From contig NC_045147.1 of the NCBI RefSeq assembly GCF_008831285.2, positions 18,702,854-18,766,853 on the forward strand: a DNA stretch of 64,000 bases, in the 5' to 3' direction. Below are positions 32,801 through 52,800 of this stretch, one piece after another. This DNA is from Nymphaea colorata. Its lineage: Eukaryota; Streptophyta; Magnoliopsida; Nymphaeales; Nymphaeaceae. Within the stretch, counting starts at the first letter, position 1; each line of letters starts with the position of its first letter. The notes under the pieces were generated by a model. The model saw only the letters and a program-made list of their open reading frames with translations, did not search any database and was not told where the DNA came from. Made by a program: the position numbers and the translations under genes.

Positions 32801-33748
32801 TAGGATCAATACATTTTATCATTATACCTTTAATTTCTTGCATGTGGTCACATGTTCAGTGATCGTATGCATAGTTTTCTGTAAATCATTTACGTTTCCT
32901 TTTTGGATGTAGTTTAGTCATTACATGGAGATATGATCTTTAGAGAAATTTGCCATTATCTCCTTTATCTTTCTTAACTTATTTTTCTTGCAGAATCGGG
33001 ATCTGAAGCGTTTCTTCTTATCTGCTTTCTATCACATGGGCGAGTCCCACCTTGTCTACAATATGCTATCATTGCTGTGGAAGGGGGTTCAACTGGAAAT
33101 TTCAATGGGAAGTGTTGATTTTGCATCTATGGTAGCAGCTTTGCTCGCCATGTCTCAAGGCATCACGCTTGCCCTAGCAAAAATGTTGGTACTGTTTGAT
33201 TATGATAAAGCCTACTACCAGGAGTACGCTGTTGGTTTCTCGGGCGTGCTTTTCGCCATGAAGGTGGTACTCAATTCTCAGTCGGATGATTATACTTATG
33301 TCCATGGGCTGATTGTCCCATCACGCTATGCTGCATGGGCTGAACTTGTTCTCATCCAGATGTTTGTGCCAGGAGTTTCATTTCTTGGCCATCTGGGGGC
33401 ATACTTGCTGGTATGCTTTACCTGCATTTCAGAGGGGAACGTATCAGATCAGATCCTCTTACTATACTGCTTAGAAAGGTCGTTGGCGTTTTAAGTCGTC
33501 CTGTCCGGTACATCAAGGACTATTTGACAGGCCAACGCAGACGGACCTTTGGCAGGGGGAGTGTTGGAAGAACAAGGAGTGATGCTGTGTGGCGATGCCC
33601 AGTTTGTACATTTGATAACGCCGTTAGCTTGAGGAGGTGTGAAATGTGCGAGACACCAAGGGAAGGTGGTGCTTTTCCAACCAATCGGAATCGTGAGCTG
33701 TCAGCAGAGGAGCTCCGCAGGAGGAGACTGGAGAGGTTCTCCAGCTGA
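29818..33748 (+). CDS. RBL14: RHOMBOID-like protein 14 (RBL14) type with RanBP2 zinc finger; apparent frameshift
   Basis: Rhomboids are intramembrane serine proteases; the Arabidopsis relative RBL14 is annotated as mitochondrial. Exon 1 (29818-30027) encodes MDGVVRRSSRGMLPFLALNV and ERKPPVTAGLLLANTLIYLRP. Exon 2 starts at 32994 after a 2.97-kb intron and carries FFLSAFYHMGESHLVYNMLS. The catalytic Ser153 is in GFSGVLFAMK and the His203 in FLGHLGA. The family then continues GG-I-L-A-G. Here that reading (ILAGMLYLHFRGE) is one base out of frame, because the G run at 33395-33399 has five Gs where six are expected. The shifted frame ends at 33494 (236 residues). The family frame runs to 33748 and encodes a WxCx2Cx10Cx2C RanBP2-type finger (WRCPVCTF...CEMC) and the terminal RRRRLERFSS. 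Either the gene is mutated or the homopolymer is miscalled. An upstream in-frame ATG at 29476 exists but reads through leader sequence. Confidence 0.88.
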
Positions 33749-34442
33749 AGCATGCACAACAGGTTGGAATCAAGTTGACCTGGAGGCATCTTTTACCGGT
33801 TTCTTGTGAGGGGAATTTGGGTTTGCAGCTGACTTTGGTAAAGATTGGCTTCCATGGCAGGGGTTTTTGGGGGTCTTTTTTTGGTTTTAAATAAAAAAAT
33901 TTATTATTGCATATCTGCTGAAGTCTACATCTGTACAAGCTGTATAAAACATGGTTATATGACAATTATATGGGGGTTTGTTGACCCCATCAATATGGGA
34001 TATATGTTGTCCGTTTTGAGCTCTTGAATCGTAAAATGAAATCGATATTTTCAAGTTGAAACATATAAGGGTTCATCTCCAGAAACAAAATGCAAGTTTG
34101 GTACTTAAGGAGCAAGTTTGGTAGTTAGAAAATGAGCAAGGTTTTAACTCTTTATTGAGCAGTACTTAGATTACTAAATAGCACAAGCAAGCGGTTAAAC
34201 TTTTCCAGACATATATTATTGATGTCATTGACTTGTCATGAATAAAAACTATTTTCAGTCCGACCGCTCGCAGGATCAGGTCAAGGCTCTAGAGTTCGAT
34301 TGAGTATGACAATTGACAAGTTAGGAAGCGTGATCAGGTCTCTTGTCATAATTATTCATAAGAATGGTTTCAGTTCATGAGTGTCAGGCGAATAGCATTT
34401 AGTTGTGGCTTTTGGTTTCGCAGCAATGCTCAGTTTCACTTT
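33749..34442. other. Rhomboid 3' region
   Basis: Likely 3' UTR and short intergenic DNA. No gene is seen. Confidence 0.45.
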
Positions 34443-35122
34443 GGTAGTGTTTGATGGCTAGGGATTTTAGAATTGAAAATATATTTCTGAAAATATATTT
34501 TCTGGAATAAAGTAATGAGAAAAATCTTTCCAATTCCTATTTTGATGTGTGTGTGATGACTGAGAAATATATTTCTAGAAATGTATTTTTGTGTTTGATG
34601 ATAAAGAAATATATTTTCAAAATAATATTTCTCTGTTTGTTTGATAATAAGGAAACTGGCAACCTTATGAACATCAAACATCATGATTGAAGAATACATA
34701 TTGACTTCCAGCTTTCGAGTAAAAATCAGGAAAACATGCATAATTTCTGAATAACCAGGAGAGGAGACAAGACTTGACGAATTTGCCAGGTGTATTGCAT
34801 TAGTATAACATGTACTAGGAATTATATGACAAGAATACAAACGTGTAAGGAGTATGACAACAATATAATATACACCAGGAATTATAAGAGAATAAGACAA
34901 CAAGCACGTAAGGCTTATGCCAAAAGTTCACACTTCACAGGTTCACAAGATTGGTTGAACCTTTGTACAGCTTGAGACATCCATTCTGAAATATTATCTG
35001 AACCCCCAAATGGAAATATAGCAGAGAAAACAATCTGTTCTGAGGCCACTCGCTTCTTAACAAAATGGTTGGTTTCATCCAGAAGATATTAACTGCAAAT
35101 ATTATCCCTGCATACTCCTCAT

Positions 35123-35705
35123 CTAATTACCAACCTTTTTATCCTCTTCCTCCCCAGCAAACCTGTGCCAAAACCAATGCATCCTCCACACACGTGCCAC
35201 ACACGTGCCATCTGCTCAATAGGGATGTCCTTCGTCTCTGGTAGGAACAGATAAACAAAGCCAGTCATCACCACCACCCACACAGAAAAGAAGAAAAAAA
35301 TGCCAGACTTCATGTGACAAAGCATAGCCAAGAAGGTCTGCGCGATCAAGAAGGTGAAGGTGAAACTCACGGCAATAGTAATACTCTGACCTGCTGATCT
35401 GATCTCAAGTGGATAAATCCCACTACGCACCAGCCAACCCAGAGATCCCCATGATATTCCAAATCCGGAAACGTAAATACCAATCAACACCAACACCAAA
35501 TATGAATCAGCTTTGCTCAGAGCACCATGGTCACCAAGCTTTTCTGCCATGATTGCACCCACAGCTACCTGTGCACAAAGCATCAGCATGCCTCCGACTA
35601 TAAACAGAGCCCTCCGGCCAAATTTATCGACAATTAACATCGACAAGAAGGTGGTGACAAGCCCTGCTCCTCCTGTTACTACAGAGCTCATAAGAGAACC
35701 ACTTT
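35123..35705 (-). pseudogene. STP-type hexose/H+ symporter, 3'-terminal fragment
   Basis: The translation matches the C-terminal third of plant sugar transport proteins: LMSSVVTGGAGLVTTFLSML, VDKFGRRALFIVGG, then GIYPLEIRSAGQSI, FFFFSVWVVVMTGFVYLFLP and ETKDIPIEQMARVW. The first two-thirds of the transporter is absent. Near the end an 11-bp tandem duplication (CACGTGTGTGG twice) shifts the frame. The other frame then reads MHWFWHRFAGEEEDKKVGN and a stop, the expected C terminus. Several usually conserved loop residues are changed (GSLGWLVRSGIYPLE where the family has GPLGWLVPSEIFPLE). It is a decayed gene fragment with no sign of function, most likely captured by the surrounding element. Confidence 0.85.
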
Positions 35706-36116
35706 CTCTGATCAAACTTATGGAGGTGCAACTCCATGTTTCCAACATAGCTTTCTAAGTTTTACATTCAGGCATCTCTACACATTGGAATATCTCCCAG
35801 AATTATGTATTCGTCAAGGATAATGGCTTCAAAGCCAGAAGGCTCAATGGTGTTGCTCATGGCAGCAGAGAGACGAAGCCAGAAGGTTCAATGGTGTTGT
35901 CTAAGGATAAAAATTAACTGACTCAAAACAATAGATAGAAAACAAATAAAGAATGCATCATGTGAAGTATGCAAAATCAACTAAAAGTGCCCAAACGCTA
36001 CCTGGAAAAGTAGAGCAAATTAAGAGCAATTACATGGAAATGAATAGAAGCAAACTACCATCACAAGAACATAGATCATAACAAAGTCAACAAAAAAGCA
36101 TTTTCAACTCCATTAC

Positions 36117-36578
36117 CTGGCCATGATACAAAAATGGCCCAAACGCCACCAAAAACGAAGAGACCACCACCGCCCCCATAAGAATCAGCCTCCTCAAGAA
36201 CCCTCCAAAGCGCCATTTACCCAACCAACGGTAATGCCTCAACAAATACACGAAATAAACAGGGTCCGCAACCATGAAGAGATGCTTGAAACATATTAAC
36301 ACAGCAAAAAAAATCCCCCCAATAAATCCCGATTACCGTCCTCGAGGAACGACAGGGAAATCATCAGAATCCCCGAGAGGAACCCATTATACTGGAAATG
36401 CACATGGTCCACAATCAACAGAGCAGGCGACCACAACACGGCGACTAGGATCAAGGCACATATCGTTGAGGGGAAGACATTCCGGGCAATCCGTGAAATG
36501 CCCAAGAAGAGGATGAGATCGGCGATGATGACGGTAGGTCTTCGGAAGTACACGACGGAAGGGGTGGAATAGTTCAGG
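36117..36578 (-). pseudogene. ALG8-type glucosyltransferase fragment, copy 1
   Basis: ALG8 adds the second glucose to the dolichol-linked oligosaccharide in the ER. The fragment reads YFRRPTVIIADLILFLGISR, then ALLIVDHVHFQYNGFLSGIL and SFLEDGNRDLLGGFF. After a 1-nt shift in a T run it continues ICFKHLFMVADPVYFVYLLR and FGPFLYHGQ. It stops exactly at a CCAG|GTAATG donor and is followed by intron-like DNA, so it derives from genomic DNA rather than a spliced transcript. The N- and C-terminal parts of the enzyme are missing. It lies on the same strand as the STP fragment. Confidence 0.82.
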
Positions 36579-36692
36579 CCCAGCGTTTCTTCTTCCTCTG
36601 CTGGACGCTGTGCGTGAGGAGATGCCCAACGCTGGTGAGACGATGACGCTGTGCAGGAAGAAGACAACGCTGGGCGTGAGGAGAGGAAGACG
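36402..36692. repeat. 291-bp direct repeat, left copy
   Basis: It starts CACATGGTCCACAATCAA and ends GAGGAAGACG, immediately before the TRIM array. The right copy (37408-37698) is collinear, with about 8 differences by eye. It includes part of the ALG8 fragment and GC-rich minisatellite-like DNA. Confidence 0.8.
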
Positions 36693-37407
36693 ACCCGACC
36701 CACTCCCGGGCTCGGGCCCCTGGTTCGACGGATCCCAACCCGCCCCCTAGCAATTTCGGTTCCAATCCTAAAAAGGCTAGGAACCAGGACAATCATCTCA
36801 TTAAAGCCTTCCTTTATAAGCCCTTCAAGATCCCTCACAATCTTCGATACAGGACTAAACATCTGGGGTGTTACAATCCACCCCCCTTAAGGCACACGCG
36901 TCCGCGCGTGTGGGACCCTAGGTCCGAATGTTGAAACTGCTCTGATACCATTATAACAACCCGACCCACTCCCGGGCTCGGGCCCCTGGTTCGACGGATC
37001 CCAACCCGCCCCCTAGCAATTTCGGTTCCAATCCTAAAAAGGCTAGGAACCAGGACAATCATCTCATTAAAGCCTCCCTTTATAAGCCCTTGAAGATCCC
37101 TCACAATCTTCGATACGGGACTAAACATCTGGGGTGTTACAATCCACCCCCCTTAAGGCACACGCGTCCGCGCGTGTGGGACCCTAGGTCCGAGTGTTGA
37201 AACTGCTCTGATACCATTATAACAACCCGACCCACTCCCGGGCTCGGGCCCCTGGTTCGACGGATCCTAACCCGCCCCCTAGCAATTTCGGTTCCAATCC
37301 TAAAAAGGCTATGAACCAGGACAATCATCTCATTAAAGCCTCCCTTTATAAGCCCTTGAAGATCCCTCACAATCTTCGATACAGGACTAAACATCTGGGG
37401 TGTTACA
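36693..37407 (-). mobile_element. TRIM retrotransposon, tandem array (LTR-int-LTR-int-LTR)
   Basis: Three copies of a roughly 190-bp LTR (about 36693-36875, 36952-37141, 37218-37407) alternate with two 76-bp internal segments, giving a 266-bp period. On the minus strand the LTR starts TGTAACACCCC. The internal part starts with TGGTATCAGAGC, the binding site for initiator tRNA-Met, and ends in a purine tract (AAGGGGGGTGG) right before the next LTR. There is no coding capacity, as expected for terminal-repeat retrotransposons in miniature. The LTR copies differ at only a few positions, so the array is young. It looks nearly whole at both ends. Tandem arrays of this kind arise by recombination between LTRs. 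Confidence 0.85.
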
Positions 37408-37698
37408 CACATGGTCCACAATCAATAGAGCAGGCGACCACAACACGACGACTAGGATGAAGGCACATCTCGTTGAGGGGAAGACATTCCGGGCGATCCG
37501 TGAAATGTCCAAGAAGAGGATGAGATCGGCGATGATGACGGTAAGTCTTCGGAAGTACACGACGGAAGGGGTGGAATAGTTCAGGCCCAGCGTTTCTTCT
37601 TCCTCTGCTGGACGCTGTGCGTGAGGAGATGCCCAACGCTGGTGAGACGACGACGCTGTGCAGGAAGAAGACAACGCTGGGCGTGAGGAGAGGAAGAC
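37408..37698. repeat. 291-bp direct repeat, right copy (includes ALG8 copy 2)
   Basis: It begins exactly where the last LTR ends and repeats the left copy, including the ALG8 codons for PTVIIADLILFL-like and ALLIVDHV-like segments on the minus strand. It lacks the rest of the ALG8 fragment, because the array cuts in before HFQYNG. Confidence 0.8.
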
Positions 37699-37945
37699 GA
37701 CGACGGTTCTGGGCGTGAGGTGCTGGGCGACGGACGATGCCCATTCCCCTTTTTTCTTCCTCTTTCCCCTTTTCTTCCCTTCTTCCTCTTTCCCCTTCTT
37801 CTGCTGGACGTTGTGCGTGAGGAGATGCCCAACGCTGGTGAGACGACGATGCTTGCTGGACGTTGTGCGGGAGGAGATGCCCAACGCCGACAACGCTTGC
37901 TGGACGTTGTGCGTGAGGAGAGGAAGACGACGACGGACGACGCTG
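37604..37945. repeat. GC-rich minisatellite-like repeats
   Basis: Units starting TGCTGGACG(C/T)TGTGCG recur at 37606, 37802, 37854 and 37898, each followed by GAGGAGATGCCCAACGC or a variant. Spacing is uneven (52 and 44 bp for the last three), and a TTCC-rich insert separates the first two. Confidence 0.6.
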
Positions 37946-37971
37946 CTCCAACGGGCAGAAAAAAAAAACCA

Positions 37972-38011
37972 GGAAATATCTTTCCACCCCTCCGGGTGGA
38001 AATATATTTCC
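37972..38011. repeat. Subterminal hairpin of the composite element
   Basis: An 18-bp stem with one mismatch, GGAAATATCTTTCCACCC against GGGTGGAAATATATTTCC, with a 4-nt loop. Confidence 0.7.
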
Positions 38012-38141
38012 GGAAACATTATTCCGGAATCGACCTGAACGGTCGAAAAAATAATTCTGCGTTTGATACCGAGGAATTTTTTTAAAAATTTGAATAATAT
38101 TTCCTGAGCTACAGTAGAATTCTTACGTATCAAACACTACC

Positions 38142-38836
38142 TTTATGTCAACCTCGTAAGATCCTAGTTAAAGATCATGAATTTGAAATCCTTGGAATCT
38201 AAAATCTTACTGTAATATCTCAATCAAACACCAGAGGAAAAACTCTCACTATCTAAATGGTTTTTTACTTTTTGGTGCCACGAGAAGATCCTCTTCCACT
38301 AGGGCCCGTTTGATTGCAGAGATAAAACGAAAAGAGAGGGGGAAAACTGTACGGTGGATGAAATTTCACCCGCCCGTACTCACGGCTTATCAAACGGGGT
38401 GAACTTTCACCTGTTTCTCGTTAAAGCGGACGGGTGAAAGTTCACCTGCTCAAAAGTCCGACCTGTGAGGTCGGACTTTTGAGCGGGCGAAATTTCACCC
38501 GCTCAACGGCACGTCGCTTTTGGTTCTCCCGCGTCAAAGCCCCTGCCCCGAGGTTTGTGGTGCCAAAACTCTACCGCCGAGATATCGCCTGAGGAAACAA
38601 AGGAGTGAGCGCCGAAACTCACTACCGGATTTTGCAGACGACGTTTTCTTCACTGCCTGATTGTCGGTGCAGCCCTTCCCTGCCACAGAGAGGGCTAGAT
38701 GCAAGGATCAGTGATCGGACAAGCTGGACGGATGGCGAGCCATTGAAGCCCATCTTCCCCTTTGCCCTATGACGCTCCCCTCTGCCCTCCGACGCTCCCC
38801 TCTGCCCTCCAGTCATCCACACTCCCCTATGCTGTT
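38142..38836. other. Hairpin-rich intergenic DNA
   Basis: CCCGTTTGAT at 38305-38314 and its complement at 38389-38398 suggest a small fold-back element. A perfect 14-bp stem lies at 38451-38481, and GAAATTTCACCCGC words recur in both orientations. No gene is seen. Confidence 0.45.
38451..38481. repeat. Perfect 14-bp hairpin
   Basis: CAAAAGTCCGACCT, a 3-nt loop (GTG), then AGGTCGGACTTTTG. It sits among other palindromic GTGAAAGTTCAC-type words. Confidence 0.85.
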
Positions 38837-38996
38837 GCTGGTTTCCCCACCCGTTGAAGCCCATCTTCCCCTCTTTGCTGGTTTCCCCTTCTGTTGAAGC
38901 CCATCTTCCCCTCTTTGCTGGTTTCCCCAACCGTGGATGCCATCTTCCCCTTTATTGCTGCTTTCCCCTCTCGTCGACACCTTCTTCCCCTCTCTT
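38837..38996. repeat. 40-bp minisatellite, 4 units
   Basis: Units start at 38837, 38877, 38917 and 38957 with GCTGGTTTCCCC (GCTGCTTTCCCC in the last) and contain GAAGCCCATCTTCCCC. The period is exactly 40 bp, and divergence increases toward the right. Confidence 0.85.
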
Positions 38997-39164
38997 CTCC
39001 TCGGGTTCTCGTTCCTCTCCTCTCGCAGTTCTATCGCTCTCTCCATCCTATCCCGTTTTCTCTCGTCTTTTCCTTGTGCTGCCTCTTCCCCTTTCCTCTC
39101 TCGGTCTCTCGTTCCTCTCCTCTCTCACTCTCTCCATCTCAACGAACAATTCAAAGGCTCCCTG

Positions 39165-39411
39165 ATGTCTCTCAACTGAATGGCGGTGATCATTCCTCCC
39201 GGGTTGCCGCTGCTATGGCTGCATGTGAGCTGAAGAAGCGAGAGTCAAATGGTTCACTTCCTTCGCTACCACAGAGAAAAATTGCTAGAGGAAACTTGCC
39301 CCCACAAAGAATTCAACCAGACACTGTTGGTAGTCGTCTTCTTCCGCCTCTAAGTCTCCACGGTTTCTCGTTGATACCGCTTGCTGGACTGAGCAACGTG
39401 AATAGAAGGGT
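39165..39411 (+). other. Exon-like open stretch, unidentified
   Basis: The frame reads QLNGGDHSSRVAAAMAACEL, then KKRESNGSLPSLPQRKIARG and NLPPQRIQPD, with balanced coding-like composition and a possible AAG|GGTTTG edge near 39410. I do not recognise it. It follows CT-rich leader-like DNA, and it could be the first exon of a small gene or another captured fragment. No convincing second exon was found. Confidence 0.2.
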
Positions 39412-39601
39412 TTGTCTCTTTAATTGCATTATGCCTCTTTCTGGTTTTGTTTTCCACCGTTTTGTTCGTCATTCTAGTGCATTCTTGATTTCTTTCAGGA
39501 GGAAAAAAAATTTTGTCGTGGTCCTGTTGTTCATGTTTCTCTGTCCCTTTCAGAAACGCCCAAATGAAGACTCTTTCTTTGTTTTTTGGCTTCTCCAGTA
39601 G

Positions 39602-40348
39602 ATGCCCCCACATCTTCATATTGTTTTGATGCTGCATGTGCTGATTGTCTTTCTCATCAGAATTGCCTCTAGATTCCATAGTTGATTATTTTTGAATGCT
39701 ATGTTGGCTTGATTTAGGGTTCTCCTTTTGTTCTCAATTCTGTATCAGCATATTGTTTAATTGTAGAATGCTTACGGAGATCCGCGTAAAAGTTATGTTA
39801 GTTGAAGAGCCACTATTGTTTCTTCATACATACAATTTCTTTAAATTGATTTTAATCATTATCTAATATTTCTGTTGTTAGGTTCACATTATTTTGGGGC
39901 TTTGACATATAGAATGGGTTATATGTTGATTCACATATCCAACAAATTTGATTCTTAAATTCAGGTTTCCAAACTATAAGCACATATATATATTCTTACG
40001 GAAGCCAATTAGTTTTGAAAAAATTTTCTTCATTTTTCTACTTTGTACATCAAACATAGTTAAATTTATCACGTTAAATTATTCTTGTACATCAAATAAG
40101 AGATGAGGGAGAAATTCTCTAATTTTTTTTAAAAAAAAATGATAAATTTACCCCAGTTTTGAGAATTTCTCAAACAAAAAGAACGAGGAAGAAGGGACGG
40201 ATGCAGATGAGGTGCTGAACTTAGACGGCAACACGTGGACAGCAGATATCGCTCTGATGGCTTTGCTCCTTCGACATTCTGTGGAGGGAAATAAAGGCGT
40301 AGTACGTCGAGAAATTGTCAGGCCAGCGGGCTAGCTAGCTAGGCACCC
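39602..40348. other. Intergenic DNA upstream of NdhS
   Basis: AT-rich, with no gene seen. The last 150 bases should hold the NdhS promoter and leader; no clear TATA box was found. Confidence 0.45.
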
Positions 40349-41092
40349 ATGGCTTCCGCTCAGATGCTCCACACTCTCCAGTGCTTAATTGATCAGAAGA
40401 GCCTCATCCTCTCCAATGGATCTCTTAATTCGAGGTCCCATCTCCTCCCCTTCTCAAACACCGGCAGCCCCTGCCAGCGCAGGCGAATCGACAGGCTATC
40501 GCCGCCAAGGGCCTCCCTCAAATTCGACCTCTCGCAGCTAATGGGCGGCAGAGGCCTTTGCAACGGAGAGGCAGGACTCGAGCGAGAGCTCACTCAAGAG
40601 AGAAAAAGCGAGGAGGAGGATGCTACCACCCACGCTTTCGAACCAGAAAAGGAAGAAGCAGGGGACAAGAAAGAAACGCGCATTCTGTCTTCCTTTGGTC
40701 TTAAGGAAGACGCTTTCGAGAAGGAGCTGCTTGGATTCACCGGAGGTTTCCCAGGTGGGGAGAAGGGTTTGAAGCAGTTCATTGAGAAGAACCCGCCTCC
40801 ACGAAAGGAAGCCGGTTCTGGTAAGGGGATTCCCGGAGCGAGACCAAAGGCGCCGGAGTTGCCCATTTTGATGCCCGGAATGATCGTCATTGTGACGAAC
40901 AAGGATAACCCGTTTTACATGTATAGTGGGATAGTCCAGAGAATCACCGATGGGAAGGCAGGCGTGTTGTTTGAAGGCGGTAACTGGGATCGACTCATCA
41001 CTTTCGAGTTGGGAGAGCTCGAGCGTAGGGAGAAGGGCCCTCCAATGGTTAACCCCAAGTCCGCTGTTCTTGAAACAATGGCGGAACAATGA
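40349..41092 (+). CDS. ndhS: NAD(P)H-quinone oxidoreductase subunit S, chloroplastic
   Basis: NdhS (CRR31) is the nuclear-encoded, SH3-like ferredoxin-binding subunit of the chloroplast NDH complex. The complex carries cyclic electron flow around photosystem I. The single exon encodes 247 residues. Residues 1-55 or so are a Ser/Arg-rich plastid transit peptide. The conserved LMGGRGLCNGEAGLERELTQ follows, then a charged linker and LLGFTGGFPGGEKGLKQFIE KNPPP. The C-terminal SH3-like domain includes LPILMPGMIVIV, YMYSGIVQRITDGKAGVLFE and GGNWDRLITFELGELERREK, ending GPPMVNPKSAVLETMAEQ. All recognised blocks are present and in one frame. The ATG at 40349 is the first in frame and leads directly into the transit peptide. 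Confidence 0.96.
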   Translation: MASAQMLHTLQCLIDQKSLILSNGSLNSRSHLLPFSNTGSPCQRRRIDRLSPPRASLKFDLSQLMGGRGLCNGEAGLERELTQERKSEEEDATTHAFEPEKEEAGDKKETRILSSFGLKEDAFEKELLGFTGGFPGGEKGLKQFIEKNPPPRKEAGSGKGIPGARPKAPELPILMPGMIVIVTNKDNPFYMYSGIVQRITDGKAGVLFEGGNWDRLITFELGELERREKGPPMVNPKSAVLETMAEQ

Positions 41093-44000
41093 TCTGCGTT
41101 TTCGTGGTATGCCTTAGTTTTCGTTTTCTTGGTCCAGTGTTGCTTGCCATATGCGGCGATGCTCTTGTCTTGTTGGATATAGGTGAACTTGTTTCTTTTT
41201 ATGTTCAAACGGTTAGCAGAAGGATTGCAATCAAATTGTACATCTTGTGCTTTCTTCTATTGTATAATTATCTGTATTGGGTTGTAAAATTGAAGATTCG
41301 CCTGTTTCCTATCTTTGCCTGCAAATCCTTTTTCAGTGCACAAATGTTAAACCAGAGTAAAGCAATAATAGAAGGAAAAGACAAACTGATAGTAGTTGTC
41401 TCGTTTCTCCACGGAAGTGCATGTTGTCGCCGTTCATTTTCCAGGATTTCTGTATGAGACATTCTTTTCTTTCCCTTTTCTTTTTCTCTTTCAAAAATAG
41501 GTTCTAGCAATATTCATATTACACCGACGGGATGTTGTTGGCAATGAATATCTCCATTTCTGTTTCTTTTATTTTTTTTATGGATACTGTAGGCTGAAGG
41601 CTTTAATAATCTAGTTTAGCAGTGGGAAAGGTGGAGAGAAATGCTTCAGGATAGTGTAGAGCTGGTCTTTTCTGGGGACTTCTGCTTGCACCTTTCACAT
41701 GCAAATATGATGAAAATCAAATGTGGAGCGGAGAGTGTAATCACAGGGTTACAACATGGCATGGCTAAGTGGATCAGATATGGTTCTTTTTCACGTTTCT
41801 GATTCATTTACAGCTACGGCCATTTTTGCATTTCCGCAAACCAGAACGAGAGTGCCTCTACCGAATCATTTTATACATTGCGACCGTATACATGTCCTTT
41901 GACTTCTCAAAATGGCCTCGTGTGAGCAATTCTTGGCAAATATGAAGAACGATTCACGTTGTGCGCTAAGGACATGTCCTATGAGGTAATTGTAGCAATC
42001 TTTTGACCAAGATTGATGTTTTTGTTCCTTTGAGATGTATCTTTGCAAGCATGTTTTTGTTCCTTCGCACTTTACTACCCAAGGTCCGTTAGGAATTAAA
42101 TATGTGGTAAATAGAGAAATTATATGTGGCGGTTTCAGTCAGTGGTTGATGCCAATTTAATAAATTTGTGCTTCTGTGAGCGTAACTATTGTAATGCATG
42201 CTTTCAAGATCGAATTGCGTTTCTACCTTACTCTTTTAAAAACTTTTGAATTCTGACTTCTGAGGATTCTTCTTGAACGAGATTGCAAGCGGACGATCTA
42301 TTATCTCAACTGACTTTAGTAGTGTATCCCAGTAGGCATCGTAGGTTTCTACTGTGGACTTTGCTTAGGCATACTGGCGTAGCTGAAATATTGAATGATA
42401 CTATGTTTAGATTCTGTGAGGTAAGCTTTTACAGATAAGGAAAATTCTTCTTGATGCTGGTATATGCATAAAGGAAGCAATTTAAGGTGGAAAGGCCATG
42501 GTTTTTTAGTACGCTGACATTATAAAGACTAAGGTTTCATAAATACTTAGAAAGTTCTTGACGATTGATGACATTGATAAATGTTGGGCGGATAATTTGG
42601 AAGTGATGGTTATTGTGAGGGTGACGCCAATGTGTAAGAAGAAAGAAAAGGCAGGATCCTTGGTGGTTCTTTTAGCTCTATGTTAGTGACCAATGGAAGT
42701 TCCATTCTCACATTTTGTTGCAATTCTTTCTCTCTCTCTCACTCACTCAGTCTCTCTCTCTCCTAGTGAAAATACATTGCATAAATACTTGTTGCTGGGT
42801 ACAGCTTTTTTTTTTTTCCATGTTGTTTACTTGCAGGCCTCAGGTCCTTGTGCATGAAAGAATCAATAACAACATTTCTTCTGTTCGTTTTTAGGCGCAG
42901 GGACAGAGCCAAATAGGGGATAAGGGGCATAGTGTGCCTGGATTTTCAGAAAGTTAAGAAATTATTGCTTTTTCCAGAAAACCCATATACCCCCCTTAAA
43001 GTTTGCAGAATATTCGATTGGGCACCCTAAAGTTTACAACAAAAAGTATAATTCTGCGCCCTGCCCTGAAATATTTTTCTGGTTCTGCCACTGTTTTTAG
43101 GCGACCGTTTTGCAGAATTTCTCCCATAGATCTCAAAACAAATGCATATAGGACTTACAAATCATGAATATGAAAGCGTGTAAGCGTTTTAACTTCATCT
43201 TGTCCATACTATCTCAATGTTTGTGTTACCTCAGTAGCCATGCCCTCGTCTCTTTTAACTGTAACTGCTCTTTTCTAGGTCTAGTTTCCAGGACTTCCCT
43301 GGCTATCAGAAGGATGAATGGCTGTTTTATAACAAAGCTTCAATTTTTTGGTCAAGAAAAGAGTATACTGATCAGAGGCCATTCTTTATCAAATCAACCA
43401 CTTGAGATGTGGTTTTCATCAAAAAGTTTGTGAAATGGTCAACTTCAAAAAGGAGCAGAAACATAATCAGCTTCATAAACGAGCAGGAAAGAAAATACTG
43501 TTGTTTCTTCTTAATTGTTATTTATCCTCTTCGACACCTATATCTTTATGTCATCTAGTTTTCTCGTTTGTTCTTAGAAAAGAAAATGCTGTCAAAAACT
43601 GCAATGGCCCTGGGGCGATTCTTTGAGATAATCTAGATTCTCGGACTTCCATGTTTCTGGCCGATTTAACTTTTGGGTCTAGTACCATGAAATTATTTAG
43701 CTATCCCATGTTTCTCATTCTATTTAGTCAAAATTTGACGGTTTTGTTCTATTATTGTATCTTTCTAGTGCTCGCATCTTTCTTTCCCCTTCTCTTCCCG
43801 TTTTCTTTCGGACTTGGGGATGCCTGTCTTGATAATGTCTTGTATCATCACTTCAATCCTGTCCCTTCGTTTCTCCAAGTGGCGTTGCCATGAGGGTGAT
43901 GTGAGATGCATCTATCTGTGGGACAACTAGGTTTAAAATAATACAAATTAATTAGCAATCAATGATCTGCCGTGGACAAGTCAACTTTCAGAACTTCAAA

Positions 44001-46169
44001 CTGCCTGTTGAAGTTTATCTTATTATTTTGCTGTCATGGTTCCTGTAACTTGCACCTCCCATCAACTTCAATTCCTTTATAATTGTAGTATTAATCTCTA
44101 ATGGATCTTTATATGTCATAGGAGAAACGGCTCATTTTAGCTGAAAGACCTGTTTGCAATTATATAGCAACAAAGTCACAAACACCTCTTCTTCCGGAAC
44201 TGCTTGAAGTCGATAAGAGTCACCTCTTCTTCGACGACTGCGTTTTGCAGAGGGACAATACTCTTTCATTTCTGTTGGTATCAAAAAATTTGAAGTTACA
44301 ATGTGCTAGATACCTCTCCTTAACATTGTGGAAAGAAAGCCGCTTTAGCAGTTGTAGACCTCTGGTACTGATGAAGGATGGTCATGTCGACATGAGAGGC
44401 GGAAGTTGCAGGCTGCAGCGTGTCGAAGAGATGACTGACTCTTTCTTCCTCCGGCATTACTGCTACTCGTATATCCCAGCTGTGCAGAAAGCGACCTGGC
44501 AGAGACTAATGCGGAAGAAAGGACTTTTAACTATTCAAGTCTTCACAGATGCCAAAAGAAAAAAAAAACAAAAATCTATTAAATGTTAGAGCATTGGAAG
44601 AAACTTGAAGTCACGCCGTAAGAGATGGCTACTATATTACTTCTGTAGCCAACTGAAGTCATGCTTCAGGTTGGGGGGACCTGCTTTTCCTTTTTAAAAC
44701 TGCATGAGGCACGCCATTCCTCTATCTCCGTAAAGAGAGAATAAGTGGTTGACCAAAAACTGATAATATTCACGCTCATCTTTCACGCTTCATTACTTGC
44801 TTTTATATTATTTGTACGAAATCTGTCCCCTCGAAATATCAAGCGCAATTTAACGTACCCCTTACCTGCAGTGGCGCTGCACATGGTCATGCCCGATGGC
44901 ATGCTGCCATAAAACTGTCTCCTTTTCGCTTCATCCAGTGCCTCTCAAATTCTCCATCAAAGAAGTTCAAAAAAAATTTCCATCTCAAACGCAGAAGTAT
45001 GAAAACAAGAGCTGGTTGATCAAACCGGGTTTTCAGGTTATTGAAAAGAGTAGGTCGATTAATTTCCTTCGTCCTTGGAAAACTCCAAAGAAACTTGGTG
45101 TTTGCTAAAGTAAAGTGATATCCCAATCTCTTGGAGTTTTTGCCTTTTTAAAATCAAAAAATGGTTGGGAACTTATCCCCTCATCGAAAAGTAAAGTGCC
45201 CATCCCAGCAACTAAAAATATTCTATCGACTATCCATGATAACTATATTAATCATCACGAGCTTAGTTGTTAAGGACATTAATTCATTAGGAAAATACAT
45301 CAGACGTCAGATTTCTGGTAGCGTCTGTGCCCTCCTGCGAGTGTGTGCCCGTTTTACTTATAGCGATGCTAATAAAGTTAGTCTCTCAACCTATATATAG
45401 ATGAAGTCGAGCATATTTTATTTTCACTAGATAAGGTTTTTAAAATCCTGAAATTTTTTATGATAAGGCATGGTTCAGGCAGCAGTGAAAACAGTATAAT
45501 AAGACGTCCAAATTTCTAGGAGTGGAATATTGTGACAACTGATCACATCAAACGCACAAAAGAAACAATTTGTTCGTAGATGCTGCTTGTTGGGAACAAA
45601 ATTAATCTCCCGATGGAGTCACGAAGGCAACTTTTCAAGTTCTCATATTCAAAGGGTTGGCAACCTAACTAAATCTCTCGTTGCACACTCCTCACCTATA
45701 AAAACCAAGCAAATGATTCTTTGATGGGTGGTTTGAAAATAACTTCTGCAGGCGTATTTTTTGCACAATCTAGTGCATGCAATAAATAGGGAGACAAAAA
45801 CTAATTAGTTTCCTCGGTTGTAAATCATGAACAATGGAAGACGGGTGGAAGTTTTTATACTGGCCCGGGATGTGTTCATTCTTGCAACGCTTTGAGGGAA
45901 AGAAGGAGACCACATTACAGCAAAGCAATGATAGATAATGATGCTAATGAACGATGAGCTGTAGAAGGCAATGCAAGTAGTCACAGAGCCTCTTAAAGAT
46001 GACATCAAATGTGGCACACGCGTCTTTATTGATCAACTTATTGCTGTCTGACAATCACTCAAAAGACAGGGAACAGAGAGAGGAAGTTAGAACATTACAA
46101 TACCAAATAGAAAAGAAGAAAAATCCTTGGACCCATTCAGCAGAGATGCTAGGTCTAGCCATTGCCGTC
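41093..46169. other. Long intergenic stretch
   Basis: It holds the NdhS 3' UTR at the left and probably the germin-like 3' UTR at the right. A CT/CACT microsatellite lies at 42728-42763. A patch at 42895-43093 ending TTCTGGTTCTGCCACTG has the look of a decayed transposon end. Open frames near 43.2, 43.7 and 44.3 kb show no recognisable domain and some lack an ATG. Confidence 0.5.
42728..42763. repeat. (CT)n/(CACT)n microsatellite
   Basis: CT repeats interrupted by CACTCACTCAG. Confidence 0.7.
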
Positions 46170-47278: not shown

Positions 47279-49081
47279 TAGCTAGCTCCTGTTGCTTGCC
47301 ATATTAATATTGTGCCATTTCTTGATCTTTAAGGCTGTCAACCAGTAAATAAAAAGCTACCCTTGTATGTATGTTTGGAAACAGAAATGGTAATGAAGTT
47401 TTCTCTGCAAATAAGGAAATCCACCCACCGCCTGTCACTGCAGAGATTTCTTCTGCTCCTTCACCATGTCGATGAGATGGAATGTAGGTTTTACCAGTGA
47501 TGGGGAGCGGCTGATCATCTGCAACGATCCGTTCTCTCATTGTTCATGTTCCTTTTATTGCAAGTTAATTGCCGATCGAATCTTGACGTCAATTCATGGT
47601 CACGTCCTCGTCGCCGTCCGGCGAACCCATTTTCATGCCATTTCGCGGGAGCGTTGCTGTCAGCCTTATCGCCACGCCTCAGTTCCGTTGATCACAAGAA
47701 TGAATGGTGGACATGAAATCATCGTCTTAGATTGCAAGATCAGGAGCTCCAATCTCGGGGAACCATCTGTTGTTGTCGTGGAATGGACGAAGCTGCATTA
47801 AATTGTAGATATGAGCTGATCATCTGCAATTCCAAGCCGGTTTAATGTACTTCTTCTCAAGATTGGATATGGGGAGTAAACAAGGACTGAGTCAAACCGG
47901 ACTCATCTGCAACTGTGTGGCCTTTGTTTCGGATTATATCAGTCCAAACATATTGTACTGATATGACCTATATGAGTGACTTTGCATACATTTTTTTATC
48001 TGAAAAAATAAATTTAAATTAGTTTCATTTACTTTAAAAATTAAAAAAATCGAAAATGGGGTGCCTATAATATATGTATATATTTATATATAGCAAAAGA
48101 TATATATATATATTAGATCCGAGTCAAAGGTTTATCCTTCTTCATTACTTTCCCCTTGTGCACGCCAAGACACGGAAGGTTTCAGGAGGTTGATTGACTT
48201 TGGCAGCTCAGCTCCTTGATAATTGTTTGTGGACGATATAGTTGCGTGGCCAAGCGTCATCTTTATCTTTTTATTGTTCGAGAAATTTTTAAAAAACATG
48301 TTTAAAGATTTCTTAATAATAAATAATGTGCTTAACATGTCACTATGGTTACCAACACACTTGAGTTCTCTTCATGGTTAAGGAAAAAATTTCATAAATC
48401 CATATGTTTATGTTTTACAAGTCAACCGTTAAATCAGAGCCTTAAAAAAGAATTATGACAAATGTGCCTATCCTTTGTGAATATACTTAAGTTTTTCAAC
48501 TTTGTTCATTAACAAGAACAACGTGTATTTAGCTAACTAGTTTACATTAATATATTAACAAAAAAATCAACCAATTACATGGATATGGTTAAAAATGAAT
48601 CCATGTTATTAAGTATAATTGAAGAGGATGGTATAAACTAATGCATCGGGGTATTTTTTTCTCATTAACTCAAGTTAAGCCTGTAATAACCTATGTTTAA
48701 CTGGCAAAAATTAGGGACAACATTAGCAATGTAGAAAAATTATGTGTACTTTTGTCATTGTCAAATCTTTAGGTTTCCCTTATTACATTTTTATTTGTTA
48801 ATGGAAATGATATAGCCATTATTTCTTGTGCAAGGATTAAATGCTTCTACCTTCTCTTTTCTTCGTAGATGATAATATTGGTCATTTTACTGATGCAAAA
48901 TGTCAATCAAATTGGCAGTTTCCTCTCAACCCTGTTACAGCTAATTAAAGGTGAACTTATTGCACCATTCTGGAAATTAAAAAACTTAAGACGCTGTTTG
49001 CTGAAACTATGAAAATGTTGTGCCCCTGAAAGAAATTTTTTTAGCCTCCTTAAGAATCAAGATGTTGGCCTATAAGCAAAT

Positions 49082-49154
49082 GGGGATGTAGCTCATATGG
49101 TAGAGCGCTCGCTTCGCATGCGAGAGGCACGGGGTTCGATTCCCCGCATCTCCA
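49082..49154 (+). tRNA. tRNA-Ala (anticodon CGC)
   Basis: A 73-nt cloverleaf. The acceptor arms GGGGATG and CATCTCC leave a G3-U70 wobble pair, the identity element for alanine tRNA. The D stem is GCTC/GAGC, and the anticodon stem CTCGC/GCGAG encloses loop TTCGCAT (anticodon CGC). The T arm is CGGGG-TTCGATT-CCCCG and the discriminator is A73. There is no intron and no encoded CCA. A CAA word lies 3 bases upstream (49077-49079), as at many plant tRNA start sites, and a T6 run at 49165-49170 serves as a pol III terminator. Confidence 0.97.
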
Positions 49155-49164
49155 GTTCCGTTTA

Positions 49165-49596: not shown

Positions 49597-49805
49597 GACA
49601 GTAATTAAGCTTGCATACACAGCTACAGGCAGATTCTTAATTTTCGATTGTAAACCAGCCTTCACTGCAACTCTCCTTGATGAAGAGGAAGACAGTAATT
49701 AAGCTTGCATACGTAGCTGCAGGCAGATTCTTAGTTTTCGACTGGCTGGCGTGGTTTGGTTGTAAACCAGCCTTCACTGCAAGTCTCCTTGATGAAGCGG
49801 AAGAC
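49597..49805. repeat. Direct duplication of about 94 bp with internal insertion
   Basis: GACAGTAATTAAGCTTGCAT... at 49597 and again at 49691 both run through CAGATTCTTA and TGTAAACCAGCCTTCACTGC to CTCCTTGATGAAG. The second copy holds about 20 extra bases (GGCTGGCGTGG region) and several substitutions. Confidence 0.8.
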
Positions 49806-52800
49806 AGGACAGAAGAAGACGAACAGAAAGACGTAACGTGAACGAGAGAGAGGAAGTGAGAGAGAGAGGGACGTTTAATGCACCTCCCCAACTCCAAGAT
49901 TTCTTATATGTCATCAATTGACGAATCATACAAAATTTAGACTGATCTGCTGACATGCGAATCGAGATAATGCATCTAACGTGATCTTTGTCAAGGCAAG
50001 ATTGTAAGCAAAACAAAGCTTGATCAAGGTTAAATGGCTGAGTTATATACGGTTTTGAAAATTGCAGTCCACTTAAAAAGATCTCTGTTTACCTTACACG
50101 ATGACGAGGGGAAGGAGGGGAGTGAGGAAGAAGACCAACGGTAGAGAAGGCGAAGAGGTGTCCAATCTCAGGATCAAGATCCATCGTGCTCCGCTCTGCA
50201 CGGCAAGGTAGAACGTGTGGCCCAGAGAGGAAGCCTCCCCTCCTCGCCTAACTCACCCCGGAGGGCCCCCCTTTTTTGGCGTTTTAACGTGAACAAAAAT
50301 TTTATTGGGTTCTTCTTTCTTTAGGTTTTTTTCTTTTTTCATTGAGTTCTGATAAGAACAAGGTAGCTGATCGGATTCATAAACCTTCAATTTGATTCTC
50401 ATGAATGTTATGAATGTTATTTAATGACACTTTAGTTGACTGATATCCCACACTTCACTTAAAACTCAAAGGAGCTTTGAGGTAGAGGAAAAAGAGGTTG
50501 AAGGCATTTGGCCCTCTGGGTGCCAATACAAACACTAATATTTAGCTTCTTATTAGCAACCATTCATTTCAGCCCAACTAAGCTTGGCTTGACTCAGAAT
50601 CCGCACCTCCGTTTCAACCTTAAGTTCAGTTAGCAAGAGGGTTATGACCCACCACCAAAGAAAAGAAAAAAACATGAAGTTTTCCTCCGATCTGTTTTTC
50701 CTTTGCATCCGCAGTTCAAGGTAGATAAGTACTATGCTCTACCTTCATAAGGCATAAAAGGGTGCCGCCTACCACTACAAGCACAGTAGAGTAATACCCA
50801 CAAAAATTGAACTGAGTGACCTCCACCAACTCTACCATCTACAGCTCTAAATACTTTGAAGCATAACCCTAGGAAGTGATATGTAAGGGGTTTCACTACT
50901 GCTCCCAAAGAAGTTAATTTTCTTGGGAAGTTACTTGAAAAACAAACTACCTAGTTCATGCCAAGAAAACTTTATTGAACTAATTACTGCGTGCGAGTCA
51001 AACACAAGCAAAGCCAGTAGCGTTCTGCTTGCGCCGGTCACCACCCCTACTGGATCCGATAGGTTTTAGGTTTGGTACATAAGAGAGAGGTGGTTGTTAA
51101 TTATACGATCAGACCTATAGAGCTCAGTATTTAATTATTTTGTTTCGATAATAGTTTAAGATGTCATACCTGATCCGGATTCAATTTAAGTACTTCTAGC
51201 AAGGTCGGCAGTTTTGGAGCCCGAATGGGACATGGACCAGGTGTTTTTCATACCCACCAAACCGGAACCAGGCACCAGGCTACATTTGGACCACCAAATT
51301 TAATATAGCGCGATCCAATCCATGAAACTGGTGGCATGAGTAAGGTTGGCTCCTATGCACCTACTTGAGCGACCGTGGCGGAGATACATAGAAGCTGGTG
51401 TGGGTCACTGCTCATACCACCCGTGAAAGACTTCATTGGAAGCGCTCGTAATCATACTGTGATGACTCAAAAATTACATAATACGGCCACATCAAAAGTA
51501 GACTTGTGACTCAAGTGCCCTTCAATCAAAAAATCATATCTCCGCCACTCCGCCGCTGCTGAGCCGCCACCAACTATGTAGTTTTATACCGGGCACTCTG
51601 TGGATCCAGACTGTTTTGATTCTTTCGACAACTTGGACCCCACAATGTAGCTATCCGATCCAGACTTGGTGGGTGGTGTGCTGCTCTCAAGTCTGAACTC
51701 ATATCCGAAGGGAAGGATGGATGATCCCCAATTAATTATAAAGGGACAAAAAGATTATTAATCTTTTAGGAGCAGCAGGAGTCTTGTGCAAGAAACAGAC
51801 GTCTTCCTCCGTCTTCTCTGTCAGCTAATGGGATCATGAGATCCAACTGTGCGTTAAGAAAGAAACGTGAGCATCAAGTCGATAGTTTTTAACTTTTCTG
51901 AGAAGCGATGCCCAACCCTAAGGCCTTTCCTAAATCCTACAATCTCACATCAACGTGTATTTCCATCTATTTTTCTTTTTTCCTCAACCGAAAACAAAAG
52001 AAAAAAAATTAAGTAGGCGCCATTTCGTTAAGATAATTTTCTGAAAATGTTTCATTCAGGTTCCATATCTATGCATTAAATAAAGACGTGGAACTTCGAC
52101 ATGCATCGTTATGGTTGGTTTCTTGATGATTTCCAGACCGATGGCGAGACCTGTCTCCGACAACATTTTCCGACTCGCCGCTTGCGCTTCAGTTTTCATC
52201 CCAAAAAGGAGCATGATACGATGCTTAGTTTGCATCCTCGTTTGAAGAAGCAGCACAAACTGTACAGGTTTTTTCACGTTGAAGATCGACTTTTGGTCAG
52301 GATTTGACACGGATCTTGTGCAGGTCATGTCAGTGATGGGATTCAAAGAAGCACGGAATGGGACGGAGGCGATCGTCGCCGCCGAACAAGGTTGTCCACT
52401 TTGCTATTTAATATTGCGACTGTGATTGTTGCTCGAGGGCGTTTCAAAGCTGGTCTCCAGACAAGCTCTCAATTTAAGTTTTATGGAAGCGTGGGTGACA
52501 TGGTTCACCGACGACTTGATCATATTTGGAGAAGAAACCAGAAAGTTTCTTTCCTCGATCTCATAACTCCCCATTAATGAACGGAGATCTGCCGGTAATA
52601 TGGACAATCAAATCAATGAAATCAAATTATGTAACATCTTAAGCTTTATCAAGAGAGAGATGATCTGTCCAAACGATTGCTTTTCAATTGGAAGATTTAA
52701 GAACGCACGTCCTTTGTGGCATTGAGCAGATGGTTGATCTGTGCTGGAACTCAGCTGGCCGGTGAGCAGGACTACCGGACCCACCCGGCTCCGGCAGCTT

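Follow-up and report, generated by a model that had tools for sequence, protein, structure and literature searches.

The window examined here, by which we mean the whole stretch of DNA analysed, comprises 64,000 nt of Nymphaea colorata (NC_045147.1) with a G+C content of 41.4%, and its open reading frames (ORFs) for a phytochrome, an expansin-like protein, a cupin, NdhS and a rhomboid protein mark the host as plant DNA. Between the rhomboid gene (stop codon at 33746-33748) and the NdhS gene (ORF 40343-41089) lies an element of 3.7 kb, at 34443-38141, that is bounded by an exact inverted repeat and holds pieces of two host genes, an STP-type hexose transporter and a member of the Alg6/Alg8 family. 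This element is probably a non-autonomous composite transposon with terminal inverted repeats (TIRs), resembling the Pack-TYPE elements and having PIF/Harbinger-like ends, that inserted between the two genes. Its features are collected in Table 1.

Ends of the element and captured genes

The 13-bp sequence GGTAGTGTTTGAT is present at both ends of the element in inverted orientation, with 0 mismatches and with TTT directly outside each copy, as an earlier, sequence-only reading of this DNA had claimed. The match reaches 14 bp with one mismatch and 27 bp at 78%. Exact inverted 13-bp pairs lying 100 to 10,000 bp apart number 619 in the window; equal 3-bp flanks are found in 3 of them, and a complexity filter leaves the element pair alone. 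Each of 15 windows simulated by a first-order Markov model contained 7 to 18 such pairs; a pair with equal flanks was present once in 4 of these windows (no complexity filter). A second detector, which accepted 14-mers with at most one mismatch, 50 to 5000 bp apart, with a target-site duplication (TSD) of 3 or 8 to 10 bp or TA and with a complexity filter, returned the element pair as its sole match in the window.

The repeat also conforms to G(N)5GTT, the motif that a TIR of at least 14 bp had to contain when PIF/Harbinger elements were mined in Medicago (PMC2213677). The two strands of the window offer about 128,000 positions, and the motif starts at only 486 of them (250 + 236), so that a chance inverted repeat would seldom be expected to bear it.

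The transporter piece is the C-terminal portion of the protein. Its ORF matches the Pfam family Sugar_tr (E 9.1e-35) over profile positions 288-452 of 452, with Sugar transport protein 10 (STP10) as the nearest PDB match (E 1.6e-50); WLVPSEI of STP10 reads WLVRSGI in the captured piece. Near its end, an 11-bp tandem duplication at 35187-35208 throws the piece out of frame and, judging from the tails of STP proteins, the other frame past the duplication presumably reaches the natural C terminus.

The second piece matches the Pfam family Alg6_Alg8 in two frames, with E 2.3e-22 (profile 77-169) and E 1.3e-15 (165-236), and its sole PDB relative is 6snh, a Man9GlcNAc2 alpha-1,3-glucosyltransferase that we take to be yeast ALG6 (E 6.1e-10 for the joined pieces, 0.0002 for one piece). 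On the basis of its motifs, we assume that the captured piece is ALG8 rather than ALG6. Both gene pieces are on the minus strand, in the same orientation as the earlier reading had it, and they belong to unrelated Pfam families; each is frameshifted, and both are broken and pseudogenic. No protein product is expected from them, and any effect of the element would be exerted through RNA or chromatin.

At the point where the ALG homology ends, the minus strand reads CAG/GTAATG, with the exon ending at 36117 and the GT at 36116-36115, a good splice donor by eye. Because this putative donor and non-coding DNA adjoin the ALG exon, the piece is likely to have come from genomic DNA rather than from mRNA; an origin of the gene pieces as retrocopies is disfavored by the same two features, rather than disproven. 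The sequence-only reading had reported a splice donor and intron DNA here, and the donor and the non-coding DNA after it are indeed seen, with the intron itself still putative. A third gene fragment, considered for 35771-35887 on the minus strand, was discarded, as its 33-aa stretch matched 0 Pfam families. The G+C-rich repeats at 37567-37966 have no match outside the element in a self-comparison of the window (E 1e-8).

A Pfam scan of all 37 element ORFs of at least 50 aa revealed no convincing transposase domain, in agreement with what had been claimed from the sequence; the element gave six weak Pfam matches, with E values from 0.0091 to 0.28, which fall under the curated cut-offs and were taken as noise. 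The element displays these Pack-TYPE features: TIRs with TSD-like flanks, DNA of host genes (Sugar_tr and Alg6_Alg8), and no convincing transposase.

TABLE 1 Features within the element at 34443-38141
Feature	Position	Strand	Remarks
Left TIR	34443-34455	+	GGTAGTGTTTGAT, exact; outer flank TTT at 34440-34442
Left AT-rich terminal region	34443-34682		26.3% G+C; repeated GTTTGAT and palindromic AAATATATTT
STP-type hexose transporter, C-terminal fragment	ORF 35122-35754	-	Homology about 35197-35700
Non-coding DNA between the two gene pieces	35755-36116		Intron-like DNA past the putative donor; 24-bp imperfect repeat (35832, 35876)
Alg6/Alg8-family fragment	36111-36577	-	Two frames; frameshift placed at homopolymer 36306-36313
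Copy B of 294-bp duplication	36401-36694	-	TRIM-free; continuous with the remaining ALG8 piece
Tandem TRIM retrotransposon, L3I2	36695-37407	-	Three LTRs, two internal regions; unit 266 bp
Copy A of 294-bp duplication	37408-37701	-	ALG8 homology 37408-37584; ends at TRIM 5' LTR
G+C-rich imperfect repeats	37567-37966		58.3% G+C; between ALG8 piece and right end; e.g., TGCTGGACGTTGTGCGTGAGGAGATGCCCAACGC
Right terminal region	37967-38141		36.6% G+C; motifs in common with left end
Right TIR	38129-38141	-	GGTAGTGTTTGAT, exact; outer flank TTT at 38142-38144

Some features outside the element are noted here in their own right. The sequence GGTACTGTTTGAT at 33188-33200, with one mismatch to the TIR, lies within the coding ORF of the rhomboid gene and was taken as a chance match. 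At 38302-38525, a PIF/Tourist-like end, GGGCCCGTTTGATTG, is followed by dense palindromes, among them hairpin arms of 34 nt at 38431-38501; no inverted partner for GGGCCCGTTTGATTG was found within 33000-46000, where the best candidate has 4 mismatches in 15. Farther away, at 49597-49807, a segment of about 100 bp is present in two adjoining copies that share 79.5% identity and lie about 440 bp from a tRNA-Ala gene (49081-49155).

Superfamily and origin

The flanks of 3 bp are unsuitable for Mutator, since Mutator-like elements (MULEs) have flanks of 9 to 11 bp. Three more superfamilies were set aside by comparison with the features given for them in PMC10741241: CACTA, as the ends begin with GGTAGTG and not with CACTA or CACTG; hAT, as there is no 8-bp TSD (flanks TTCACTTT and TTTATGTC); and Tc1/Mariner, for which the flanks or ends are unsuitable. 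The ends have a likeness to PIF/Harbinger, whose TSD is described as TWA (PMC4482050 and PMC2213677); TTT as the start of a word is absent from the available passages of PMC4482050, and among elements annotated as PIF a TTA or TAA duplication is found in 52.4% of those in rice and 81.2% of those in maize (Gisby and Catoni, PMC8903248). Because its TTT differs from TTA/TAA, the element is not filed as PIF/Harbinger, and its ends are described as PIF-like only. If sister elements share the TTT flanks, these ends would define a PIF-like group with a target of its own. Among the literature matches listed for the TIR letters, no title concerns transposon ends.

In the mechanism that we propose, a PIF-like transposase supplied from elsewhere and recognizing the GGTAGTGTTTGAT ends would have mobilized the shell, and genomic DNA of two loci would have contributed the gene pieces, through either fusion of neighboring insertions or patch repair. 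The first of these routes, in which an element carrying the STP piece and another carrying the ALG8 piece lay side by side and became fused with only their outermost ends left, as in the neighbor fusion of Pack-CACTA, is possible but not the course that we would expect. It follows a published model of Pack-TYPE acquisition (PMC8903248), the two pieces share one orientation, and the unpaired PIF-like end at 38302, just 160 bp beyond the right end, is what might be seen if such ends cluster. However, no trace of an inner TIR was found between the pieces, where the scores of 19 to 22 compare with shuffle medians of 20 to 22.

That missing trace is one of several results that weigh against a Pack-TYPE transposon as such. 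The TTT flanks are not the canonical TSD. In 100 windows simulated by a third-order Markov model, which served as the null for the second detector, TIR+TSD pairs occurred at a mean of 0.72 per window, with at least one pair in 52 of the 100. Beyond the 13 bp, local alignment of the two ends gives a score of 25, which equals the 99th percentile of 1000 shuffles (maximum 31). The 8-mers common to the two ends were matched in 58 of 2000 shuffles and in 11 of 1196 and 10 of 1198 other placements, and the common 7-mers were matched in 187 of 2000 shuffles. Finally, a search of the rest of the window for a sister copy gave scores within the shuffle range in three of four end searches. The fourth was marginally above it, the right end scoring 34 against 44970-45000 with a shuffle maximum of 33 (n=25), and that site was rejected as a sister end: it consists of an A-run and CAAACGCAGAA, with no recognizable transposon end around it. 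We note that packFinder discards singletons and that Pack-TYPE clusters are multi-copy (PMC8903248).

An alternative is that there is no transposon here at all and that the interval is filler DNA, its two fragments brought in by illegitimate repair or segmental duplication and its 13-bp repeat and 3-bp flanks due to chance. The frequency of chance pairs, the lack of a sister copy within the window and the non-canonical TSD all favor such an origin, and the small internal repeats and the tandem duplication suggest repair activity. Nevertheless, we consider it unlikely. A simulated TIR+TSD pair enclosing both gene fragments occurred in 0 of the 100 third-order Markov windows, and the repeat that does enclose them matches a published transposon TIR motif. 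Furthermore, AT-rich ends with common motifs flank G+C-richer gene pieces: all five occurrences of AAATATATTT in the window fall within the two ends, as do 6 of the 25 occurrences of GTTTGAT, 2 of these 6 being the TIRs themselves, although the shared motifs were picked post hoc, after inspection of the ends.

Since chance TIR+TSD pairs are common in 64 kb, it is by its placement and motif that the inverted repeat is convincing, and the rarity of such repeats is no argument. A Pack-TYPE-like transposon, which the sequence-only reading had already proposed, gives the best fit to the anatomy of TIRs, TSD-like flanks, two host fragments and no transposase; what had been overlooked were the pseudogenic damage and two further features of the interior, a nested retrotransposon and a duplication of 294 bp.

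A nested tandem TRIM and a duplicated target

The ALG8 piece is interrupted by a tandem terminal-repeat retrotransposon in miniature (TRIM), and 294 bp are duplicated across this TRIM. The string TGTAACACCCC occurs in it three times, TGGTATCAGAGC twice, and the purine tract AAGGGGGGTGGAT twice; by the usual rules for elements with long terminal repeats (LTRs), we take these to be the LTR start, the primer-binding site (PBS) of the iMet type and the polypurine tract, respectively. With direct LTRs, a PBS-like string, a purine tract, no retrotransposon proteins and a length of <1.5 kb, the insertion has the make-up of a TRIM. Cassandra was considered because TGTAACACCCC occurs inside a primer for the Cassandra TRIM LTR in work on Linum markers (PMC4163409); the other listed literature matches that hold TGTAACACCCC are chicken papers. 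It was rejected, as LTRs of Cassandra bear 5S rRNA sequence and Rfam, at gathering thresholds, gave one match in the window, a tRNA.

Copy A of the duplication halts precisely at the start of the TRIM 5' LTR, after GACCATGTG, while copy B continues past the same point. The two copies differ at 8 of 294 positions (97.3% identical), 6 of the 8 being transitions, and between the outer LTRs there are 5 differences in 186 aligned positions, 1 of them at the joint. Because the divergence of the outer LTRs and that of the duplicates are alike, the insertion of the TRIM and the repair that we propose below would be of similar age. One outer LTR is without approximately its last 7 to 8 bp, and its joint to copy B shares about 2 bases by eye. 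A 5-bp TSD on both sides of the TRIM was not found: the outer LTR edge is missing, and the 294-bp copy adjoins what is left, which we attribute to the proposed later repair.

It is improbable that the TRIM and the duplication are an assembly artefact in which a TRIM-bearing and a TRIM-free haplotype were fused, for although copy B is TRIM-free and close enough to copy A to look like an allele, the shared bases at the joint fall far short of an overlap join, and L3I2 TRIMs are known, the tandem Zma-SMART TRIMs of maize having been verified by polymerase chain reaction and sequencing (PMC4717578).

We propose instead that, after the capture, the TRIM would have inserted into the ALG8 piece behind GACCATGTG, and that a break at the edge of its outer LTR may have been mended with a copy of some 294 bp taken from across the TRIM. 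The copied DNA would then have been end-joined through the roughly 2 bp of shared sequence, in the manner of error-prone repair. Templated repair copies nearby sequence at microhomologies. As the 5-bp target duplication of the TRIM, predicted to be ATGTG, could prime copying from across the TRIM, a TRIM-free copy B might arise without a second allele. The order of capture, TRIM insertion and duplication is suggested by the nesting, and some of these events could conceivably have taken place earlier, at a donor pseudogene.

More speculatively, a break at the edge of a nested LTR element, followed by TSD-primed copying and end-joining, may be a way in which captured gene pieces become amplified and Pack-type elements grow; we advance this tentatively and hold it to be doubtful as a general route. 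A nested TRIM with a duplicated target amounts to a datable repair scar in a captured piece and would show how such pieces are reshaped after capture. If sister elements exist, they would represent an extra gene-capturing family in Nymphaea colorata; the element alone alters no general view.

Comparison with known systems

The closest parallel is with the Pack-PIF elements (PMC8903248), which likewise have short TIRs, 3-bp flanks, fragments of host genes and no transposase, and among which Zm-Pack-PIF cluster 18, subgroup B1, of maize is a further case in which two different genes have contributed pieces. The differences are in the TSD, which is TTT here as opposed to TTA/TAA, and in the length, 3.7 kb as opposed to the averages of 402 and 535 bp for cluster 18. 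Pack-MULE elements of rice and Pack-CACTA elements of Arabidopsis (PMC8903248 and PMC13317346) differ from the element in ends and flanks, those here being free of CACTA/CACTG and 3 bp long, respectively. There are published cases of single Pack-MULE, Pack-CACTA and other elements that contain genic DNA from several loci (PMC8903248).

The ends themselves are reminiscent of the MtPH families of Medicago (PMC2213677). These share the G(N)5GTT motif, several of the families have a GG...TGTTTG core, and the TIR resembles GGCTWTGTTTGG and other ends in table 3 of that report; nested insertions and internal repeats are described there too. In contrast to the element, a TAA or TTA duplication was required of the MtPH members, and the 67 non-autonomous ones are without coding capacity, with host genes not mentioned in the passages available.

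For the nested insertion, the tandem L3I2 TRIMs (PMC4717578) provide a ready counterpart, being short, with three LTRs, two internal regions and no protein domain, and TGGTATCAGAGC is also printed in that paper for a TRIM-related element of rice. L3I2 is the commonest form of tandem TRIM in maize, accounting for 63 of 93 cases. The TRIM described here differs from these in having lost one outer LTR end and in spanning the 294-bp target duplication.

A search of the open-access literature for STP together with ALG8 in a transposon yielded only unrelated yeast work, the papers matched for Pack-MULE, PIF and ALG8 together did not contain ALG8, and among the matches listed from the open-access literature there was no element with this donor pair or with these end or LTR strings. 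The novelty that had been claimed for the combination of two genes is nonetheless weak, given that multi-locus Pack-TYPE elements, including the two-gene Pack-PIF of maize, are published (PMC8903248). With tandem TRIMs already published as well, the element represents a new pair of donor genes and not a new kind of element.

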